Assembly (NCBI GenBank): GCA_017509155.1 | Contig: JAFWQE010000154.1 | Span: forward strand, 1-36,541 | DNA length: 36,541 bases | Source: Prevotella sp. | Lineage (GTDB): Bacteria > Bacteroidota > Bacteroidia > Bacteroidales > Bacteroidaceae | Direction: 5' to 3' | Part shown: positions 167 through 10,181 of the stretch, piece by piece | Layout of the letters: each line of letters begins with the position of its first letter | How positions within the stretch are numbered: position 1 is the first letter of the stretch | Made by a program: the position numbers and the translations under genes | The notes under the pieces: model-generated | Database searches by the model: none | The model's input: the letters and a program-made list of their open reading frames with translations, nothing else | Told to the model about the DNA's origin: nothing

Positions 167-700
167 TAAGTCATTCACGTTTGGTTCACGTAGATTTACG
201 TTTTAAACCCTGAGGAATAATTATAATAATTACGGTAATTTCTGTCTAAATCTCTCATCCACATTCATGTTTAATTCACGTAGATTTACGTTTTAAGACG
301 TAAGGGAAATTATATTAATTATGGTAATTTCTGTCTAAATCTCTCATCCACATTCATGTTTGATTCACGTAGATTTACGTTTTAAGACGTAAGGGAAATT
401 ATATTAATTATGGTAATTTCTGTCTAAATCACTCATCCGCATTCACGTTTGATTCATGTAGATTTACGTTATAAAATGTGGGTGATAATTATACTAATTA
501 TGGTAATTTCTGTCTGAATCTCTCATCCGCATTCATGTTTGATTCATGTAGATTTACGTTATAAAATGTGGGTGATAATTATACTAATTATGGTAATTTC
601 TGTCTAAATCTCTCATCCGCATTCATGTTTGATTCACGTAGATTTACGTTTTAAAACCTGAGGAATAATTAAAATAATTACGGTAATTTCTGTTCAAAAT
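167..700. repeat. Tandem array of six 89-90 bp units
   Basis: The word GTAGATTTACG recurs at 190, 280, 369, 458, 548 and 638, giving periods of 90, 89, 89, 90 and 90. Each unit has a small palindrome (ACGTA-GATT-TACGT), an A+T-rich block resembling TAATTATAATAATTA and the word GGTAATTTCTGT. Units 2 and 3, and units 4 and 5, are nearly identical pairs, which suggests recent amplification. The last unit runs into the 3' end of the Nudix gene and supplies its final codons and stop. No other gene is seen in 1-677. Confidence 0.9.
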
Positions 701-1097
701 AACAGGGAGCGTCCATGAGCGCCTTCACCGCAACCTTGTCTGCCGGCAGCCAGTCCACGCTGTCCATGTCGTCTTTCGTCAGCCACCGCGCCGCCTCATG
801 CTCCTTCAGCTTCGGCGCACCGCCCACCATGCGGCATCGGAAGCAGTGCATCGTCAGATGGAAATGCTCATAGTCATGCTCCACCGTGCAAACCCTCTGC
901 CCCACTTCAACGCGCGCCTCCAGTTCCTCCCACATCTCCCTTTCCAATGCCACCTCGGGAGTCTCGCCGGCCTCCATTTTCCCGCCGGGAAACTCCCATC
1001 CGTCCTTCATCTCGCCATAGCCACGCTGAGTGGCCAGCACCTTGCCGTCGTCGCTGAAGATCATCGCGGCCACCACTTCGAGCACTTTCCGCGTCAT
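678..1097 (-). CDS. MutT-like Nudix hydrolase
   Basis: A 139-aa protein of the usual size for MutT-type pyrophosphohydrolases, which cleave nucleoside triphosphates such as oxidised dGTP to the monophosphate. The Nudix box lies at about residues 39-61: G39, E45, then R53-E54 and E57-E58, the metal-binding glutamates. The usual glycine near the end of the box is E60, a small departure. The preceding PGGK and the early RGYGEMKDGWEFPGG are typical of MutT/CTP-pyrophosphohydrolase relatives. The start codon lies 4 bases after the stop of the upstream lipoprotein gene, so the two are probably cotranscribed. The last residues (FEQKLP) and the TAA stop are encoded by the adjacent tandem repeat. The exact substrate cannot be read from sequence. 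Confidence 0.9.
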   Translation of the reverse strand: MTRKVLEVVAAMIFSDDGKVLATQRGYGEMKDGWEFPGGKMEAGETPEVALEREMWEELEARVEVGQRVCTVEHDYEHFHLTMHCFRCRMVGGAPKLKEHEAARWLTKDDMDSVDWLPADKVAVKALMDAPCYFEQKLP

Positions 1098-2763: not shown

Positions 2764-3426
2764 TCAAATGATCGTTATTTCCAGCCTAAGTCTCAACATG
2801 GCATCTATGATTCGCAGCATTTTATATTTGTCCTTTGTTGAGTTTGGAACTGTGAGCCACATGTTCTCACCTACTTGCACCTGACCGTTATACTTCTTTA
2901 TTGGTGTGATTATGTTCTTGTTCTTGAACATCAGCTCTTTTCTCTGTATGATTTCCGGTCCAATTTGCCATATAGCATCAATCAAGGTGTCAATGGGATT
3001 CTCACCGGCTGCATATTCGCCACTAGGGAACTTCACCAATAGTTTATCGTCTTTCTTTTTCTGCTTTTGGATCACCTTCTCATCACTGGTTTCAAAATCC
3101 GTTCCCACTTCCACTTCCATCTGCAACCCCAACTGGGTTCTGATAGAAATGAGCTGCATGTACTTTTGTTGTGTATCACTTTGTGCATTGACATACCAGC
3201 CATTGCAGACGGGTTTCATGTAATCTTTATAGCGAGGATATATCTCTTTGCTCAGCAGTGGCAAATGACAGTTCTCAGTCGTAATCTTCGAAAAGTTTTC
3301 TTCGCCTATTGCCACCAGTGCGTCTATAAGCGTCATGGTGGCACTCTTATAACAAATCACCTTGCCGTCAGGCATGGTCACTCTCAGCAGTTTCCTCGTT
3401 GCTCTTTGTCTTAGGTTTTCGTCCAT
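2764..3426 (-). CDS. Two-copy domain protein, last gene of the McrBC-like operon
   Basis: A 220-aa protein that is an internal duplication. Residues about 12-107 and 127-220 each follow the pattern KLL-V-PDG, a TLIDA helix, an IG turn, a small beta segment, a short S/N-S/D-T-x-x-K-Y motif (SDTQQKY / NSTKDKY), and end in a hydrophobic LGLQMEVEV / LRLRLEITI strand. A lysine-rich linker (KQKKKDDK) joins them. I recall similar domains beside restriction and helicase genes, but I cannot name the family. The start is 2 bases after the nuclease gene's stop and has a strong Shine-Dalgarno, unusual in this phylum, so high and coupled expression is likely. It could be an accessory or substrate-recognition subunit; that is inference from position only. 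Confidence 0.8.
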   Translation of the reverse strand: MDENLRQRATRKLLRVTMPDGKVICYKSATMTLIDALVAIGEENFSKITTENCHLPLLSKEIYPRYKDYMKPVCNGWYVNAQSDTQQKYMQLISIRTQLGLQMEVEVGTDFETSDEKVIQKQKKKDDKLLVKFPSGEYAAGENPIDTLIDAIWQIGPEIIQRKELMFKNKNIITPIKKYNGQVQVGENMWLTVPNSTKDKYKMLRIIDAMLRLRLEITII

Positions 3427-3428
3427 TT

Positions 3429-5564
3429 CTATACCTCCCCTTTGTACAGTTTCATTGTATAGTCGTATGAGATCAGTTCACCAGGCTGCATCTTTTCACG
3501 GTAGATTTTCACCTTCTCCTCCCCTATAGGAATATACCTCCCCAACCGGAGCCTCAACGCTGGTTTGTCCTCAAACGTGGTAAAGCCGATGCGCTGTACC
3601 TCATAATAGCCGTCGATACCTCCCGCCACCATCGGCAAGAAGTACCGTATGTTCATCAGATTGATGTTTGGTATTCGCTCCATGACATACGACTTTGCTT
3701 CGTGGTCCATGAATATCTTGAAGTCTGATGCCGTTCTGCGAACCAATCCTGTCAGGATATTCTTCTCTGCAGGCTTCTCCTTAATCTGAGCGGGCGTTTC
3801 AATAATGGCCCTATTGATTACTACTTGTGGATTGTCACCGAGCGCACACTCCACCACATAGAAGTGCCGTCGCAGTTCTTCCAGCAGCGTAGCATTGTTC
3901 GCCTCGTCACTCTTATCAAGTGCGAGCGAGTAGTATTCGGTGTTTTCATAAGGAGTGTACATCTTGCCCAGCACGTCTTGGAAGTGGGTCTTGATATACC
4001 GCTTGCCATCCTCGTCTGGATGCGACTTCATGGCATAGAACTGATAGTTCTGCTGAAGCATCTTTTGTATTTCTTCGCGGAATATCTCCCTCACCTTCTT
4101 CTTCCAGCTTGCTTTCTTCGACTTGTTGTTCAGCGCATATAGCGACACGACAAAGAGGAAGTTCACATCATAGTGGCACACCAACAGCGTATCACGGTCG
4201 AACAATCGGTTGGAGAATTGGTCAGACGTGAAGTATTTGTTCTTCTTCTCCGTCAGTCGGATGGTGTCCCTATAGCTCAAATCCTCCTCCATCGTGGCAC
4301 TGATGAAGAAGTTGGGTATGATGTTATAGCCCTCTGTCACCTCATCTCGCAGCTTTGGTACTTCGCGGAATTGGTTCCAATCGCTTTTCCAGTCCTCATC
4401 GTTCTCGTTGCCTTTCATGAACAGGTTCAGGTTCCATTGTATCACATTTCTGGCATACGTGAACTGCTTGGCAACCGACTCGCGGCCTATCGGATTGTTG
4501 CGCTTATAGTACTTCGAGTCGCCTATATAATAAATAGGTGTGTCCTCATTATGCGTGGTCAGCCCCTTGTAGGTATAGATGTGGTCAACCATCTTGCCGT
4601 CTTCCTGCTTCTTCAGTCCGGCTGGTACTTCGCCCGTCTCACCAATCAGCTCGTCGATGATGGCCTCGAACACGATGTTGAAACTCTTCACCAGCAGATA
4701 GTCCTTCTGCCCCATGTCGATGGTCACGTTTTTGGCCTTGTCAAAGAAAGCATAACACAAGTTCCACAGCTGCAGTGCCTTGTCAGAGAAGTATTTGTAC
4801 TTTATCTGTTGCAACCGTATCTTCCCCACCCCTTTCAGATAGTTCTGGAACCTACGGCCTGTTATCAGTTCGTAGTTGCAGTTTATCTTCACTGGGAAGC
4901 CATAGTGCTCGTTGATGTAGTTCAGGATAGAGAAGAAGATGATGAGCAGCTCCTCGTCGAAGTTGATTTGTCGTTTCTTGTTGACGGGGTTCACGTAGAT
5001 GGCACTGTTATCCTGCACCACTGCCGTAGTCTTGGCTATCGTCCGCGTCCAGTTAATCTTGTTAAAGCCGGCATGCATGTTCTTGATGATGAACATAAAG
5101 AACTGCTGGTTGTCATCGTTAAACTGTATGAGCGACAGCAGAATGTCGAGGAAGGTGTTGTTACGCTGCTTGCGACCACGATTCACCTGCGCCATCTTTT
5201 TGTGATAGACTATCGACGTATCGTTGCGCTTGTCGTTGTAGAACACCACCACAGCACGATATATCCACACCGAGAAGTCGTAGATGAAGTTCTTCTGCTC
5301 CTCAGTCAATGGTGAGTCTTCGCCTATGCAGATGATGTCCTCCGGCTTGTACTGTCCAAACACCAGTTCCTGACCATCCCTTACCTCCAACAGCACCTTG
5401 GGAAGAATAAAGACACAGTCGTACACGTCAGGGTGACTATTGAAGTAATATCCCACATAGTTCACCGAGACGTAGCCTTCGATGTCCTCCAAGGCATCAA
5501 TGCCATGAATGGTTTGCCTCACATCGTCAGCCAGGTATCTGTATTCCTCAATCAGGATTCTCAT
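3429..5564 (-). CDS. McrC/LlaJI-like PD-(D/E)XK restriction nuclease
   Basis: A 711-aa protein, about twice the length of E. coli McrC and closer to LlaJI-type partners of McrB GTPases. The likely catalytic core is at residues 300-375: a helix ending FEAIIDELIG, then D327 in MVDHIYTYKG, the strand IYYIGDSKYYK with D349-x-K351, and a following helix FTYARNVIQ. This is the order expected for a PD-(D/E)XK nuclease. The N-terminal 110 residues resemble McrC-type beta-rich partner-binding segments, and the C-terminal 300 residues are unassigned. Its ATG overlaps the TGA stop of rhuM (ATGA), indicating translational coupling. It presumably cuts DNA when activated by the McrB ring on modified or foreign DNA. 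An exact second copy of its first 23 bases lies just after mcrB (6631-6653). Confidence 0.82.
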   Translation of the reverse strand: MRILIEEYRYLADDVRQTIHGIDALEDIEGYVSVNYVGYYFNSHPDVYDCVFILPKVLLEVRDGQELVFGQYKPEDIICIGEDSPLTEEQKNFIYDFSVWIYRAVVVFYNDKRNDTSIVYHKKMAQVNRGRKQRNNTFLDILLSLIQFNDDNQQFFMFIIKNMHAGFNKINWTRTIAKTTAVVQDNSAIYVNPVNKKRQINFDEELLIIFFSILNYINEHYGFPVKINCNYELITGRRFQNYLKGVGKIRLQQIKYKYFSDKALQLWNLCYAFFDKAKNVTIDMGQKDYLLVKSFNIVFEAIIDELIGETGEVPAGLKKQEDGKMVDHIYTYKGLTTHNEDTPIYYIGDSKYYKRNNPIGRESVAKQFTYARNVIQWNLNLFMKGNENDEDWKSDWNQFREVPKLRDEVTEGYNIIPNFFISATMEEDLSYRDTIRLTEKKNKYFTSDQFSNRLFDRDTLLVCHYDVNFLFVVSLYALNNKSKKASWKKKVREIFREEIQKMLQQNYQFYAMKSHPDEDGKRYIKTHFQDVLGKMYTPYENTEYYSLALDKSDEANNATLLEELRRHFYVVECALGDNPQVVINRAIIETPAQIKEKPAEKNILTGLVRRTASDFKIFMDHEAKSYVMERIPNINLMNIRYFLPMVAGGIDGYYEVQRIGFTTFEDKPALRLRLGRYIPIGEEKVKIYREKMQPGELISYDYTMKLYKGEV
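3433..3441 (-). promoter_or_regulatory. Strong Shine-Dalgarno for the two-copy domain gene
   Basis: On the minus strand AGGGGAGGT lies 6 bases before the ATG at 3426, inside the last codons of the nuclease gene. Bacteroidota genes usually lack such sites, so it supports both the start choice and efficient translation of the last gene in the operon. Confidence 0.7.
5542..5564 (-). repeat. 23-bp direct repeat, copy at the nuclease start
   Basis: These 23 bases are the start codon and the next codons (MRILIEE) of the nuclease gene. They are identical to 6631-6653, and the bases on either side differ (G versus A on the left, A versus G on the right of the plus strand), so the identity is exactly 23 bp. 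The pair brackets rhuM. Confidence 0.95.
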
Positions 5565-6613
5565 ATTTCCGTTTTCTCGTCATCGGACGATTGGTGCTCA
5601 CCATCGGACGATTGGTGCTCACCATCGTCTTCCTTATTGTTTTTCAACCGCTTCACTGCCTTATCGAAATCGCTTTCCAACATCCGCATTTCCCGCTCAC
5701 GATAGATTTCAAACTCTCGCTCTGCCTTCTCAATGGCTTCTTGGTGGGAAACTGTCCCGTTGCCTTCCAAGATATTTTTCCGCAGTCGGAGAATCTGGTC
5801 ATCAAGTGCAGCAATCCAGTCGGCCATCGTCATCGGGTTCTGTTCCAGTGCTTGAAATTCAGCATAGTCGAGGAATTGCGAGGTCAATAGGTTTAACCGC
5901 TGTAATTCAAGTTCCGTTAGGTAGTTCTTGGCTATCTTTACATCATCACGGGTCACATAGTTACCCTTGAAGTTGGTCATGCCGACGAAAGGCTTCTCAT
6001 TATCCACTCGTTCATAGATGAGTTCCGCTGCCGTATGCTCGTGCACAGCATAATGCATCTTGTTCTGCACAGTGGCAAAGAACAACTTCGTCATCTTGGC
6101 TCTTGGGTCATAGTCTGTGCTGGTGGCATAGATGTCCGTCACCTGCTGATAGAAGTTACGCTCGCTGCTGCGGATGTCACGAATGCGCTGCAAGAGTTCT
6201 TTGAAGTATCGGTTGCCACCTTGCTTCAATCGCTCATCGTCCATCGTGAATCCCTTCTGGATATACTCGTGTAACCGCTGCGTTGCCCAACGCCGGAACC
6301 TCACGGCAATAGACGACTGTACCCGATAGCCTAGGGCAATAATCATATCGAGATTGTAGTGGTCAATCTCTCTTTGCACCTGCCGTTTACCTTCTTGACG
6401 AACTAGAAAGAATTTCTTTCGAGTTCCCTCTTCACTCAACTCCTTGTCTTGGTAGATGTTGCCGACATGAAGGCTGATGTTCTGAGGTGTGGTTGCATAA
6501 ATCTCCGCAAGATTCTCTCTTGTCAGCCACACATCTTCGTCAGCAAAGCGCACATTCACATTCACCTTGCCCTCATCATCTTTATAGAGTATCAGTTTGT
6601 TTTCCTTGTCCAT
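5561..6613 (-). CDS. RhuM family protein
   Basis: A 350-aa protein from the ATG at 6613; the frame is open to a TTG at 6640, but those residues come from the 23-bp repeat region. It matches the RhuM family: an N-terminal helix-turn-helix-like Fic/Bro-type region (VWLTRENLAEIYATTPQNISLHVGNIYQDKEL), then DHYNLDMIIALGYRVQSSIAVRFRRWAT and a C-terminal coiled-coil region. RhuM genes are often found inside restriction and pathogenicity islands, and their biochemical role is not established. The C-terminus ends in an acidic tail containing two exact GEHQSSD repeats. Its stop overlaps the nuclease start. It sits between the two subunits of an McrBC pair, so it may modulate or sense the system, or may be a passenger. 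Confidence 0.88.
   Translation of the reverse strand: MDKENKLILYKDDEGKVNVNVRFADEDVWLTRENLAEIYATTPQNISLHVGNIYQDKELSEEGTRKKFFLVRQEGKRQVQREIDHYNLDMIIALGYRVQSSIAVRFRRWATQRLHEYIQKGFTMDDERLKQGGNRYFKELLQRIRDIRSSERNFYQQVTDIYATSTDYDPRAKMTKLFFATVQNKMHYAVHEHTAAELIYERVDNEKPFVGMTNFKGNYVTRDDVKIAKNYLTELELQRLNLLTSQFLDYAEFQALEQNPMTMADWIAALDDQILRLRKNILEGNGTVSHQEAIEKAEREFEIYREREMRMLESDFDKAVKRLKNNKEDDGEHQSSDGEHQSSDDEKTEI
5581..5627. repeat. In-frame 21-bp tandem repeat in rhuM
   Basis: Two identical 21-bp units (5581-5601 and 5602-5622) plus five bases of a third encode GEHQSSD twice in the acidic C-terminal tail of RhuM. The period is a multiple of three, so copy-number change by slippage would add or remove seven residues without a frameshift. 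Confidence 0.9.
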
Positions 6614-6653
6614 TTGCGATGCGAAATTGATATTCCTCAATCAGGATTCTCAT
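6582..6653 (-). other. Mini-ORF with a duplicate of the nuclease start
   Basis: Two bases after the mcrB stop codon there is an ATG opening a 23-codon frame. Its first seven residues, MRILIEE, are the same as the nuclease N-terminus because of the 23-bp repeat. It then runs out of frame through the first codons of rhuM and ends at TAA 6582-6584. It looks like the original nuclease start left behind when rhuM arrived, and it may still couple translation from mcrB into rhuM. Confidence 0.7.
6631..6653 (-). repeat. 23-bp direct repeat, copy after mcrB
   Basis: Identical to 5542-5564. It lies between the mcrB stop and the rhuM start, in the same orientation as the other copy, 1089 bp away. Confidence 0.95.
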
Positions 6654-6655
6654 GA

Positions 6656-8533
6656 TTATTTCTTCTCAATATGAATACCCCATGATTGCTTATTCACCTT
6701 ATCTACAAATTCTGTAATCCGCTCCACATTATATTGGTTTGACACATAAAGCGATTGCCCATTCATCATCTGTACTGTTTTATATCTTGAACGAAGTCCT
6801 GGGTCTGAAGAAGAAGCGGTACGAGTCTCAAACATTTGCTGTGTCTCAATGAGATTAGGAACTTTGATATTCAGACCAAGCCAAACATCAACAACCTCTT
6901 CAGCTGTCATTTCCGGGTGCATTGACACATACATCTCAATAGCCGCATGTGCAACTCGTCCCTTTGGGTAAGCTCCTTCACCGTTGATTGAGAACTTCGT
7001 ATAGTCATAATTCCTATTATTAGGATTAGAGATGTCGTCCCCATTATCGTCAAGCACAGGCTCTTCTACCATTGTCTGATTGCTTTCTAATATCGCATCT
7101 ACTCCCAGATTCTGCAGGAACAACTCTACTTTGTCTTCCTTTACAACGGCCTTTCCATTAGCGTTCACATCATAGAACTTATTGAACGTCAGTTCTTCCT
7201 CACCATCGCGGAAAATGTCGCTGCCAAATGCCTGGTCTTTGAACACGTCGTTCCAGAGATAGAATATAACCTTCGAAACAAACGTCTCAGCCTTCACCAC
7301 ACCATCCTGTGCCTTACAGAAGAAGTAGCCCAGCTTCTTATCCTCAGACTTGGTTTGCTCGTTAATCTCAGCATTGATTTTCTCCACAAACTGCCACCAG
7401 TCGTACAGTTTGCCGTTCACCTTAATCCTCCATCCCAGCGACACACCATTCTCCTTACCCTCGCAGATAGGCATATACTTCCAGTCCCAACGACGCTTGA
7501 AGGCCGAGTCTATCGGGAACAAGCTCTGGTCAGAGGTGTTCATTGTTGCCCAGATATACAGATTATCAGGCAATAGCAGAATATCACCACTCAGCACCTT
7601 ACTCACGATGTCCTTGCCATAGATGTTGTTGATGCGCTCAGCATCGGCAATCGTCTTGCCTTCGAAAGCTTTGCTCAGTTGCTTCTTCATGTCCTTATCA
7701 GCCTGAATGGGATAGTCGGAGAATCCACAGCCATTGCGGTCGAGCAACTGGAACAGGTCGCCGAATATCTGTGCACAGTTACCACGGTTGATTTCCTCAA
7801 TCACCAGATACTGCTCCTCAGCCTTTTCTCCCTCTGCTGCCTTGGCGTAAGCATCCCATGCCTTGATGTAAGCTTGGAGGAAAGCCTGTTCAACAAACTC
7901 ATAGACGATACGTGTTTCCCAAACTGGCTCTTTCGTTTCTTCGTCAAAAACCAGATGCCCTGCGATGTCACGCATTTGCACATCAATAGTTGTTGGTTTG
8001 TATGCACCAACAAATGTTGAATAATCACTGTCTGGATGGAAAGTAGTTCGAATTACGTCTGCAGAAGCAGTTAACCTCTTTACCTCATGAGACTTTCCTG
8101 TACCTGGGGCACCAAAATAAATCACCTGTCTCGGAAGCTTCTCTTGTTTTACTGGACTCTTCTTAACTTCCTTACTTGAAGTGAACTGATTTGCCAGTAA
8201 ACGCACAGCCCTCAAAAAGTTGATGTACGTAAGCAGAGCATTATGGTACTGACCTCCACCTATTTTTTTGAAAGGTTTACCCTCGTTGGTCCCTCCCTTG
8301 AACTCGTCGAACGAAGGTAGAGCTGATAGTTCAACATATATCTGCTGAATGTAATCAGGGTCATCAACGTCTATCAATTCCGTAAAGCCTGTATACCGAT
8401 TTTTTATCAGCATGTTCAGCCTTGCAAAGTCGGAATAATTCTCAGCACTTGCTGGAGAAGAAGTACATTGGCGAATGTAGTTCCTGTATAATTCCAGTTT
8501 GCTTTCCTTGCTTTTAAATAGTTCTGTTATCAT
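6656..8533 (-). CDS. mcrB: McrB-type AAA+ GTPase of a modification-dependent restriction system
   Basis: A 625-aa protein. The AAA+ core begins with Walker A GAPGTGKS (141-148), then Walker B LVIEEINRGN (243-252), MNTSD (331-335, sensor/nucleotide-specificity region) and FKRRWDW with arginines 347-348. The EINRGN and MNTxD forms are characteristic of the McrB GTPase clade. The N-terminal 130 residues form a separate helical domain that should recognise DNA and is not the classical EVE or DUF3578 domain as far as I can tell by eye. In the known E. coli system McrB forms GTP-driven hexamers that activate McrC. Here it is followed by rhuM and then the nuclease, and preceded by a small repressor-like gene with a 47-base gap. 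Confidence 0.92.
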   Translation of the reverse strand: MITELFKSKESKLELYRNYIRQCTSSPASAENYSDFARLNMLIKNRYTGFTELIDVDDPDYIQQIYVELSALPSFDEFKGGTNEGKPFKKIGGGQYHNALLTYINFLRAVRLLANQFTSSKEVKKSPVKQEKLPRQVIYFGAPGTGKSHEVKRLTASADVIRTTFHPDSDYSTFVGAYKPTTIDVQMRDIAGHLVFDEETKEPVWETRIVYEFVEQAFLQAYIKAWDAYAKAAEGEKAEEQYLVIEEINRGNCAQIFGDLFQLLDRNGCGFSDYPIQADKDMKKQLSKAFEGKTIADAERINNIYGKDIVSKVLSGDILLLPDNLYIWATMNTSDQSLFPIDSAFKRRWDWKYMPICEGKENGVSLGWRIKVNGKLYDWWQFVEKINAEINEQTKSEDKKLGYFFCKAQDGVVKAETFVSKVIFYLWNDVFKDQAFGSDIFRDGEEELTFNKFYDVNANGKAVVKEDKVELFLQNLGVDAILESNQTMVEEPVLDDNGDDISNPNNRNYDYTKFSINGEGAYPKGRVAHAAIEMYVSMHPEMTAEEVVDVWLGLNIKVPNLIETQQMFETRTASSSDPGLRSRYKTVQMMNGQSLYVSNQYNVERITEFVDKVNKQSWGIHIEKK

Positions 8534-8580
8534 ATGGCATATCTTATTCTATAATTCTGTTTTGCTCGCTGTAGTTTTCA

Positions 8581-8799
8581 TTAGCCTCTACTTTTTGGGG
8601 CTCTTACCAGTTCGGTATAATCGACTTCGAGCAAATCTGCGATTTCTAACAACAAGTCAAGTGTTGGCTGAGACGCATTTGTACACCACTTGCTGATAGT
8701 GGCGGGGTCTTTGCCTAACTGTTCAGCCAACCATTTGCTGGTTCGTTTTTTTTCTACCAGCATCACCTTTATTCTGTTCAAGTCTTTAGTATCTTCCAT
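8581..8799 (-). CDS. XRE family helix-turn-helix regulator
   Basis: A 72-aa protein that is essentially one Cro/C1-type DNA-binding domain: residues about 20-45 (WLAEQLGKDPATISKWCTNASQPTL) are the helix-turn-helix, followed by LLLEIADLLEVDYTELV, the usual closing helices. It is the first gene of the McrBC-like operon and has a Bacteroidota promoter immediately upstream with a leader of about ten bases. Small XRE proteins heading restriction operons commonly repress their own promoter, and the 20-bp direct repeats at 8871-8909 are candidate operators. Confidence 0.9.
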   Translation of the reverse strand: MEDTKDLNRIKVMLVEKKRTSKWLAEQLGKDPATISKWCTNASQPTLDLLLEIADLLEVDYTELVRAPKSRG

Positions 8800-8820
8800 G
8801 AAAGTGCTTTATTTGTGCTG

Positions 8821-8852
8821 CAAAGATAACTATAATTCATGAAACAAACAAG
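8821..8852 (-). promoter_or_regulatory. Promoter of the XRE-McrBC operon
   Basis: Minus-strand CTTG, 20 bases, TATCTTTG: the -33 and -7 boxes of the Bacteroidota sigma-ABfr promoter. The -7 box is 21 bases before the XRE start codon. Confidence 0.75.
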
Positions 8853-8909: not shown

Positions 8910-9196
8910 TGTATTAAACGCCCATATGTCATATCTGAAATATCTTGTGTTATAAGATGCCTTCCAAGACTATGAAGGATGAAGCATAACTATAAAAAAG
9001 CACACAAAAAAACAATACAATCTCATAGCTACCAAAGCCCTGCTACTATCGCAAGAAAAAATTGTGGAAATGGAAACATAAACTCTTGCCTTCATTATCC
9101 TTTTACATCCATAGTAATATCGTCAAAGGCTACTTTTTAAAACCTCTTGTATGGGAACGATTGACAGGTGGCGCCACAATAAATAGAGTAAAAAGC
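8910..9196. other. A+T-rich intergenic region
   Basis: No convincing gene, hairpin or terminator is seen here. The frame of the dinD remnant is open upstream to 9062, but those residues do not resemble the family. Confidence 0.5.
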
Positions 9197-9512
9197 ATGG
9201 ATATACAAAAGATATTTCAGTATAAGTCTACATTTGACCTCATTGCGAAAGAGATTAAAGATGATGACGGCAACACCATTGAAATATGGTATGCCTGTGA
9301 ACTACAACAACAATTAGGCTATGCCCGCTGGGTGAAAAACTTGTGGAAGCAATAGGGCGAGCCGCCGAATCTTGTAAAACGCTGGGGGTCAATATTGATA
9401 ACCTTTTTCGTGAAGTCACGAAAATGGTCCAGTTGGGTAGTGCTCTGAACGCTAGATTCAATACTTTATGCTCACCCGCTATGCCTGTTATTTGATAGCC
9501 CAAGATTCTGTT
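9197..9512 (+). pseudogene. dinD: dinD remnant (DNA-damage-inducible protein D), frameshifted and truncated
   Basis: Three successive frames give consecutive pieces of DinD. From 9197: MDIQKIFQYKSTFDLIAKEI and EIWYACELQQQLGYARWVKN. From 9343 in a second frame: VEAIGRAAESCKTLG and VTKMVQLGSA. From about 9461 in a third frame: YFMLTRYACYLIAQD. DinD is normally near 275-280 residues, so about two thirds of the protein is missing at the 3' side. After QD the expected GDPRK.EIAFAQSYFA is absent and the sequence runs into the convergent DUF2442 gene. At least two frameshifts and a 3' deletion make this non-functional unless the window has sequencing errors. Confidence 0.8.
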
Positions 9513-9572: not shown

Positions 9573-9815
9573 CTATGCTACCTTGAACAAATCGAGCACG
9601 GAGTAGACGCGCGTCATGTTCTCGAAAGTGAAGTACTGGTCGTCGAGCACCATCCATTTCTGACGTTCCTTTACCGGCATTCGCTTGATGTCAGGGAAGA
9701 ACGAGAGGGGAATAATCAACTCCCGTCCGTCGGTAAGCTTCACATACATCTTGCCGCGATAGTCGGTAAAGTTCATGTCTTTGATGCCAAAATGTACATC
9801 TTTCATCTTACACAT
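9573..9815 (-). CDS. DUF2442 family protein
   Basis: An 80-aa protein with the DUF2442 pattern: an N-terminal strand VHFGIKDMNFTDYRGKMYVKLTDGRELIIPLSFFPDIKRM, then a short helical segment and hydrophobic C-terminus. The ATG at 9806 (MKDVHFG) is an equally possible start. It follows the DUF4160 gene by 18 bases on the same strand. DUF4160/DUF2442 pairs are a recurrent two-gene arrangement in bacteria and have been suggested to be toxin-antitoxin-like, but activity is not established. The lack of signal peptide or membrane segment implies a cytoplasmic protein. Confidence 0.82.
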   Translation of the reverse strand: MCKMKDVHFGIKDMNFTDYRGKMYVKLTDGRELIIPLSFFPDIKRMPVKERQKWMVLDDQYFTFENMTRVYSVLDLFKVA

Positions 9816-9833
9816 ATCACTGTTCTCCTATTT

Positions 9834-10130
9834 TTATTTTTCAATGTCAATAGCTACGGTCTTCTCACCGTTGAATGCCCTTGTTATCTGTTCGTTGATG
9901 AAGTCCCCGTGACGGTTGATAGCCGCAACAAGCATCTCGTTCTCTTTCGTTGAAAGTGTAGACTCTGCTATCTCCACACATTGCTTTCCATCTGACTCTA
10001 TCCAGATTTTAGCCAACGATTGCTGGTGCCGCTTTCCCTTCTTAAACACATGAACGTGCCTGCGATTGTCGTTTACGTCGAGTGAAATGGCGACCAAGAT
10101 GAACATTCTCAAGAACGCTAACTGTCCCAT
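9834..10130 (-). CDS. DUF4160 family protein
   Basis: A 98-aa protein from the ATG at 10130; the longer frame starts at a TTG two codons upstream, within the inverted repeat. The sequence has the DUF4160 core FILVAISLDVNDNRRHVHVFKKGK (a paired histidine motif), followed by AKIWIE and a helical C-terminal part (STLSTKENEMLVAAINRHGDFINEQI). It is the first gene of a two-gene unit with the DUF2442 gene and has its own near-perfect promoter. The arrangement suggests a small autoregulated module next to the restriction operon. Confidence 0.8.
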   Translation of the reverse strand: MGQLAFLRMFILVAISLDVNDNRRHVHVFKKGKRHQQSLAKIWIESDGKQCVEIAESTLSTKENEMLVAAINRHGDFINEQITRAFNGEKTVAIDIEK

Positions 10131-10133
10131 GTA

Positions 10134-10181
10134 CAAACAGATTGTTTGTGCAAAGATAACAATTTATTTTTAGCTGACAAA
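10134..10181 (-). promoter_or_regulatory. Promoter and possible operator of the DUF4160-DUF2442 pair
   Basis: Minus-strand TTTG (10178-10181), exactly 19 bases, TATCTTTG (10151-10158) matches the Bacteroidota consensus. An inverted repeat CAAAC-AGATT-GTTTG at 10134-10148 covers the expected transcription start, a usual operator position for self-regulated modules. Confidence 0.75.

Follow-up and report, generated by a model that had tools for sequence, protein, structure and literature searches.

The five-gene operon that Prevotella sp., a gut or rumen bacterium, carries at positions 2764-8799 of contig JAFWQE010000154.1 (GCA_017509155.1), whose full 36,541 nucleotides (nt) are referred to here as the window, is, on its sequence, a McrBC/LlaJI-related DNA-cutting defence operon assembled from swappable parts. 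Its open reading frames (ORFs) encode, in order, an XRE/Cro-type regulator, a McrB-like AAA+ GTPase, RhuM, a McrC/LlaJI.R2-like nuclease and a 220 amino acid (aa) protein in which an unnamed domain occurs twice (referred to as DUP220 and DUP domain). With a probability of roughly 60%, we read the operon as a methylase-less McrBC-type restriction machine on a LlaJI-like chassis common in Bacteroidales, in which RhuM would serve as guard and DUP220 as accessory. The reading leans on a comparison with related operons, in which the type of the McrB N-terminal domain (N-domain) predicts methylase presence, and in which the switch between the two states has recurred repeatedly.

For this comparison, a scan of genome contigs returned 473 relatives and the best 80 were retained. 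Loci from plasmid, phage and further genome searches were added, yielding together with the window 146 nuclease loci, of which 135 were distinct (11 duplicates being left out) and 129 had McrB adjoining (6 of the 135 having no McrB on their contig). One more pair was kept off the nuclease tree, leaving 128 tree rows, and the L036 row was excluded, an antisense ORF having been called in place of its nuclease. Within the genus of the window, 62 of the 398 genomes searched held a nuclease relative (E <= 1e-50), and no relative was returned by viral-contig scans with queries P0001, P0004 and P0002 or by a plasmid search with P0001. Most relative operons have one or two 5-methylcytosine (5mC) methylase genes ahead of McrB, corresponding to the LlaJI layout. 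Vsr-like endonuclease genes (named by eye; cluster c3, 21 ORFs) are frequent companions of these methylase-bearing operons.

McrB N-domains were clustered from sequence alone and set against the presence of adjacent 5mC methylases in 113 loci, the window included, that had at least 1.5 kilobases (kb) of upstream sequence and a Walker A match; two separate tables, to one of which the second set below belongs, likewise total 113 loci but omit the window. No adjacent 5mC methylase was present in 28 of the 31 loci with the short N-domain types n1 and n2 (3 with), and one was present in 76 of the 82 loci with other types (6 without). The three exceptions in the short group (L080, L086 and L197) have N regions of at least 265 aa, and two of the six methylase-less loci of other types (L021 and L022) carry, as judged by eye, methylase-like genes of other kinds, the remaining four being L024, L025, L188 and L189. 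In 44 loci of a second set that lay outside the clustering, 9 n1/n2 loci were without and 1 with a methylase, as against 4 without and 30 with for the other types (p ~9e-6, calculated by hand); a larger version of this split (10/1 versus 6/34, p 6e-6) includes seven loci that had already been clustered (L018-L023 and L026). Independent pairs (n = 20) gave ~17.5 versus 0.3 (median p 1.5e-5), and the methylase-less state requires at least 21 changes on a quickly built nuclease tree (26 on the best tree, as against a mean of 30.9 after shuffling). Because of these tree changes and independent pairs, shared descent was rejected as the cause of the rule. The switch can also be followed between near-identical nucleases: those of L076 and L077 are 98.6% identical, one locus having two methylases and an N region of 295 aa and the other no methylase and an N region of 112 aa, and those of L186 (one methylase) and L184 (none) are 98.4% identical. 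The window operon has no 5mC methylase upstream, and its McrB N-domain clustered by single linkage with the n2 domains of L044, L045, L050, L073, L086, L095 and L101. Short N-domains such as this one would probably serve methylase-free restriction of a kind that is probably modification-dependent.

The features of the operon are as follows.

8581-8799 (minus strand): XRE/Cro-type regulator, 72 aa (HTH_3, E 4.7e-9)
6656-8533 (minus strand): McrB-like AAA+ GTPase, 625 aa (AAA_5, E 6.3e-7; McrB-type PDB sequences; MNTSD)
8144-8533 (minus strand): McrB N-terminal, presumed recognition, domain of the short n2 type, ~130 aa (single-linkage sequence clustering)
6656-7100 (minus strand): McrB C-terminal region, exchangeable, unmatched by the DUP profile (E 0.8); PADLOC PDC-S57, E 1.2e-8
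6631-6653 (minus strand): upstream copy of the nuclease-gene start, exact, 23 nt, opening a 23-codon remnant ORF (MRILIEEYQF...)
5561-6613 from the likelier ATG, or 5561-6640 from a TTG (359 aa) (minus strand): RhuM (PF13310; Pfam E 3.6e-106)
5542-5564 (minus strand): second 23-nt copy, the real nuclease-gene start, overlapping the rhuM stop in ATGA (sequence comparison)
3429-5564 (minus strand): McrC/LlaJI.R2-like nuclease, 711 aa (D327, D349-x-K351; phrog_16589), with a C-terminal beta-rich extension at about residues 600-711
2764-3426 (minus strand): DUP220, 220 aa, with two copies of the unnamed domain at 3103-3396 and 2767-3054 (domain profile and model)

All five ORFs were found intact on the minus strand, in agreement with the original prediction, which had been made from the DNA letters; the stretch that it proposed (2764-8852) runs past the last ORF, the outer edge of which is at 8799. 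Its GAPGTGKS, EINRGN and MNTSD motifs are all present in McrB, and its identification of a McrBC/LlaJI-like pair was correct, as indicated by the invariant nuclease residues, by MNTSD and by five McrB-type sequences that were matched in a PDB sequence search (E 2.3e-10 to 1.6e-8). The strong Shine-Dalgarno coupling that it saw at the 220-aa gene was likewise recovered, the DUP220 ATG lying 2 nt past the nuclease stop and being preceded by GGGGAGG. The two genes that it regarded as additions to a McrBC-type chassis indeed recur, with RhuM in the McrB-nuclease slot of 9 of the 129 distinct pairs and a DUP220 gene within 1.5 kb after the nuclease in 8 of them. The gene order as a whole fared less well: the four-gene order McrB-RhuM-nuclease-DUP220 was present in 2 of the 129 pairs (the window and L043) and the complete five-gene order in 1, while 20 pairs have an XRE-like gene no more than 4.5 kb upstream of McrB. 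Since the five-gene order is rare and its modules recur, the operon is better described as a mosaic than as a single fixed five-gene system. The exchange of McrB N-domains and methylases, which is the larger finding, had escaped the original prediction.

This mosaic character extends into McrB itself, of which the motor core is conserved across relatives and the N- and C-terminal regions are variable. The NxxD signature reads ATMNTSD in 121 of the 129 pairs and ATMNTCD in 1, the pattern being missing in 7; with NTSD, the window McrB has the NxxD form and not the shortened NxD signature that is the hallmark of CoCoNuT. While identity to the window nuclease is 82-89% among its eight closest relatives, the McrB N-domains of seven of them barely align with the window's, and no nucleotide match to its McrB N and C regions was found in the loci compared. 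The C-domain of the window McrB was also considered as a DUP domain, yet the initial match (probability 97) came from a mixed profile: DUP-type McrB C-domains that were profiled separately match DUP (probability 98), whereas the window's C-domain is left at the E value listed above and a profile of its own C-domain type reached a probability of 0.5 against DUP, from a poor alignment.

The D327 and D349-x-K351 residues that had been pointed out in the nuclease are present, and D327, H328, D349, S350 and K351 are identical in 135 of 135 distinct relatives (a first alignment having shown D327, D349 and K351 in 10 of 10). The nuclease matches phrog_16589 'restriction endonuclease' (E 3.4e-7); Pfam yielded no family in it, DUF2357 included, and its profile found no match among PDB sequences. 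Its last 110 residues were modelled by AlphaFold2 as a beta-rich domain with a predicted local distance difference test score (pLDDT) of mostly 76-90. At the nucleotide level, the nuclease gene is closest to L034, L036, L037 and L038 (78-80%) and the motor core to L034-L038 (74-77%), and these nearest loci carry methylases and have no RhuM in their McrB-nuclease slot. The window rhuM, in contrast, is closest to L074 and L165 (86% at the nucleotide level; 96% and 96.7%, respectively, for the protein), of which the nuclease genes are only 65-67% like the window's. These different nearest loci for nuclease and RhuM again indicate that the locus is a mosaic.

RhuM passes the PF13310 gathering score by a wide margin (354.5 bits versus 33.7), and a search with it against PDB returned no match. 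Other occupants of the same slot are SLFN_AlbA_2 (L042, L048 and L103), Bro-N (L086), DUF2971 (L102) and an unnamed gene (L191), with two more entries representing split mcrC or mcrB genes; the SLFN_AlbA_2 and Bro-N genes we take to be of kinds linked to defence. On the nuclease tree, slot RhuM required 9 changes for 9 rows (shuffled mean 8.8), and a tree of eight slot RhuMs fell into two groups, one of which includes an out-of-slot RhuM (L088), suggesting that rhuM moves. RhuM also lies outside the slot in, for example, L036, L037, L075, L088, L089 and L103. A 4-nt overlap between rhuM and the nuclease gene (5561-5564 in the window) is shared by the window, L070, L074 and L107. Near the end of the window rhuM (5581-5630, minus strand), a GEHQSSD-coding unit occurs in two tandem copies, the RhuM of L074 and L070 being shorter (335 aa).

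The original prediction had also missed that the start of the nuclease gene is present in two exact 23-nt copies, one on either side of the window rhuM, at 6631-6653 and 5542-5564. Such start copies were scored in the slot loci against 200 shuffles each, and those of the window (23/23), L071 (29/30) and L073 (20/24) exceeded all of them. L097 also scored above shuffles (14 versus 11), the match covering roughly the initial 11 bases of the nuclease start. The copy in L165 did not, although by eye it resembles a decayed form and the locus has the same bases as the window up to the rhuM start. No start copy was found in L043, L070 and L107, and the L074 score, one above shuffles, was located away from the start; among the slots with other genes, L048 (SLFN_AlbA_2) was marginal (17 versus 16 shuffled) and the remaining five had no copy. 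The simplest reading of the 23-nt repeat is that of an insertion footprint, in which rhuM would have been inserted just inside the nuclease gene. As the nuclease start would have been remade downstream of the insertion, the nuclease would have been kept whole.

The internal duplication that had been proposed for the 220-aa protein was borne out, in that both halves match one profile, are 22-23% identical and have the same strand and helix order in the model; the profile had 9 rows, the two halves of the window protein among them. The AlphaFold2 model of DUP220 consists of two ~100-aa domains (mean pLDDT 84.8, predicted template modelling score 0.52), for which we found no Pfam family at E <= 1 and, with Foldseek, no PDB fold at E <= 0.001. 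In addition to the eight pairs mentioned above, L039 and L055, which the filter had missed, bring the number with a DUP220 gene after the nuclease to 10. A profile of free-standing copies further located the domain at the McrB C-terminus in 18 of the 129 pairs, the window's McrB not among them. The domain also recurs beside R-M and BREX genes: in L028 it follows AIPR next to an EcoRII-type system, in L029 it is fused to HSDR_N, and in L031, L032 and L119 it comes after an HNH gene, BrxL and an Eco57I-type enzyme, respectively. Across 395 genomes of the phylum, the DUP profile gave 3 positives including the window's own, which is perhaps an under-count. AIPR genes (cluster c8; PF10592 in L039, which was tested) lie upstream in L034, L035, L038-L041, L055 and L056, and all of these loci except L038 also carry DUP220; in L028, AIPR directly precedes the DUP220 relative.

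With L039 and L055 added to its list by hand, DUP220 required 5 changes for 10 rows on the nuclease tree (shuffled mean 9.8) and so tends to track nuclease descent. Every nuclease that it accompanies has the C-terminal extension of the window type in full (10/28 versus 0/100, p 6e-8), at an extension cut-off (E < 1e-30) that was picked after a looser one had shown no link to DUP220 (8/0 versus 88/33, p 0.11). DUP220 may therefore be an accessory subunit of the C-extended nuclease complex, with a part in recognition or assembly. A SeqA-like nature of the DUP domain was also considered and not upheld: a 28-residue motif matched PDB at E 0.37-0.49 and was lost with a wider profile, the SeqA C-terminal domain reached a Pfam E value of 0.025 in 1 of 19 members and an hhalign probability of 12-22%, and SeqA was not among the best 50 of 143 Foldseek rows.

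By analogy with McrBC and LlaJI, McrB would act as a GTP-driven motor, its short N-domain would select the target, and the nuclease would cut once the motor is loaded. Since there is no cognate methylase, what the short N-domain recognises is most likely a modification of DNA, or some other feature that host DNA lacks. The window system would then behave in a Type IV-like manner, and close relatives with ~200-aa N-domains and 5mC methylases in a LlaJI-like manner. RhuM has been proposed as a toxin domain in restriction-modification (R-M) loci with PrrC-like genes (as described in PMC3710099), and one study reported in vitro binding of LexA at a site beside a rhuM gene (as described in PMC3998124); in the open-access literature searched, a HEPN survey was the only work returned for RhuM together with McrB. 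A guard role for RhuM beside McrBC would fit, with RhuM as an effector that the complex would restrain in the way that EcoprrI restrains PrrC. More tentatively, and with slightly less than an even chance in our estimate, the chassis might flip freely between self-protecting R-M and methylase-free forms by swapping the N-domain with or without methylases, RhuM might be a mobile guard cassette whose entry point is exactly the nuclease start codon and which duplicates the nuclease start and leaves the nuclease intact and translationally coupled, and DUP might be a so far unrecognised defence-wide adaptor, fused to McrB or in tandem in trans.

Loss of the methylases from a LlaJI-type R-M system, with the locus surviving through weak or absent restriction, would also produce an operon without methylases. 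The seven nearest tabulated nuclease relatives (L034, L035 and L037-L041) do carry 5mC methylases, and a decayed DinD-like remnant adjoins the operon, yet all five ORFs are intact, the nuclease residues are retained, and the N-domain is of the type common to methylase-less loci and not a remnant of the long type that plain methylase loss would have left in place; we consider such a broken system quite improbable. Rather unlikely, though less so, is a short N-domain that binds unmodified DNA while self is spared otherwise, for example by XRE-repressible expression or by dependence on DNA entry or replication state. LlaJI is described as binding its unmodified site (in the review PMC12707154) and an XRE gene adjoins mcrB, but a system that constantly cut unmodified DNA and had no methylase would be toxic to its own cell, and the absence of methylases is the same in both short types, n1 and n2. 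As the bin consists of 229 contigs with 6.24% contamination, the gene order might also be an artefact of metagenome assembly; this is highly improbable, given that the McrB-RhuM-nuclease order is present in 8 other distinct loci and the four-gene order in L043, and that L165 has the start copy in decayed form and, immediately ahead of rhuM, the same bases.

The main rival to a guard role sees in RhuM no more than a passenger that uses the site, be it a selfish gene or a defence gene acting independently, which we find possible though less likely than not. It would explain why RhuM is distributed over the nuclease tree as if at random, why it accompanies both methylase classes and why it also occurs out of the slot elsewhere. 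On the other hand, one slot has been used by two RhuM groups, the 4-nt overlap couples rhuM to the nuclease gene in four loci, and other genes of this slot (SLFN_AlbA_2 and Bro-N) are of defence-linked kinds.

A number of observations weigh against the preferred reading of a methylase-free restriction machine with a RhuM guard and a DUP220 accessory. The McrB N-domain has no Pfam hit (residues 1-130, E <= 1), DUF3578 included, and the n2 profile has no PDB match. The AlphaFold2 model of the nuclease has a mean pLDDT of 51.9, with the core mostly below 50, and the nuclease tree, being quickly built, joins some long branches together. No PF00145 methylase was found in the window's assembly (control positive in 10 of 14 genomes), in a genome-wide search limited to that family and in an assembly that is 82% complete and as contaminated and fragmented as given above. 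A clear start copy is present in only 3 of the 9 RhuM-slot loci (the window, L071 and L073), RhuM also occupies the slot of methylase-bearing loci (L074 and L165), and the candidate tie between RhuM and methylase absence is a tendency only (Fisher p 0.003; independent pairs, median p 0.125). Finally, the link between DUP220 and the nuclease extension comes down to 3 independent pairs.

LlaJI of Lactococcus, as described in PMC1459862, resembles the window operon in pairing a McrB-like specificity subunit with a nuclease subunit that bears a PD...D/EXK motif. The LlaJI type has two 5mC methylases in its operon and most relatives of the window have one or two upstream, whereas the window has none and differs further in its short N-domain of another type, in RhuM between the subunits and in DUP220 after them; the likeness was judged from the published description of LlaJI. 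For the B3-like N-domain of LlaJI-type GTPases, PDB sequence searches gave no match with the n2 profile or with two methylase-type N-domains. EcoKMcrBC, a Type IV system (described in part in PMC11090510), also combines an AAA+ GTPase bearing NxxD with a nuclease and no methylase; the window differs in an N-domain without a DUF3578 hit, a nuclease without a Pfam family and its extra genes. Most relatives examined here resemble the methylase-associated McrBC branches of PMC11090510, which join McrBC to predicted DNA methyltransferases; its passages on these branches defer them to a later paper and mention neither switching nor a DUP domain, and its main text contains no occurrence of RhuM, LlaJI or SeqA. 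The R-M loci with PrrC/EcoprrI and RhuM of PMC3710099 likewise have an R-M operon into which an additional gene is embedded, and a RhuM proposed as toxin, but their RhuM accompanies PrrC-like genes, whereas that of the window lies between McrB and nuclease and is flanked by nuclease-start copies. For Prevotella intermedia, of the same bacterial group, PMC5608340 describes McrBC loci together with an R-M locus linked to AIPR, and AIPR also occurs in several operons here; in that description the McrBC loci are two-gene Type IV systems without RhuM or DUP220. EVE, YTH and B3 are listed as McrB readers in PMC12707154. As far as these sources go, LlaJI, methylase-linked McrBC and other McrB readers were thus known before, and in the open-access literature searched we met no description of repeated switching, of nuclease-start copies around rhuM or of the DUP domain.

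If the preferred reading is true, the near-identical nucleases (at least 98%) with and without methylases would be natural matched pairs for asking how a restriction enzyme that follows 'cut unless methylated' turns into one that follows 'cut without a methylase'. The copied nuclease starts would suggest a route by which accessory genes enter restriction operons without breaking them, and the DUP domain would flag further defence genes that are unnamed in the family libraries searched.

In the neighbourhood of the operon, an apparently broken remnant of a DinD/PDC-S13-like gene lies at 9062-9506 (plus strand; weak profile hits), of which 9178-9506 is 84% identical to L034 5213-5541, apparently inside a 288-aa ORF between AIPR and methylase. 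Just upstream of the operon, 9573-10136 (minus strand) holds a small pair of DUF2442-like and DUF4160 genes, the DUF2442 match being slightly below cut-off. A Nudix-like gene (by eye) is located near the restriction genes at 678-1097 (minus strand), and in L046 and L080 such a gene directly follows the nuclease. The sign of the GC skew changes at ~9600-10000, the first 10 kb being C-rich on the plus strand and the next 5 kb G-rich.

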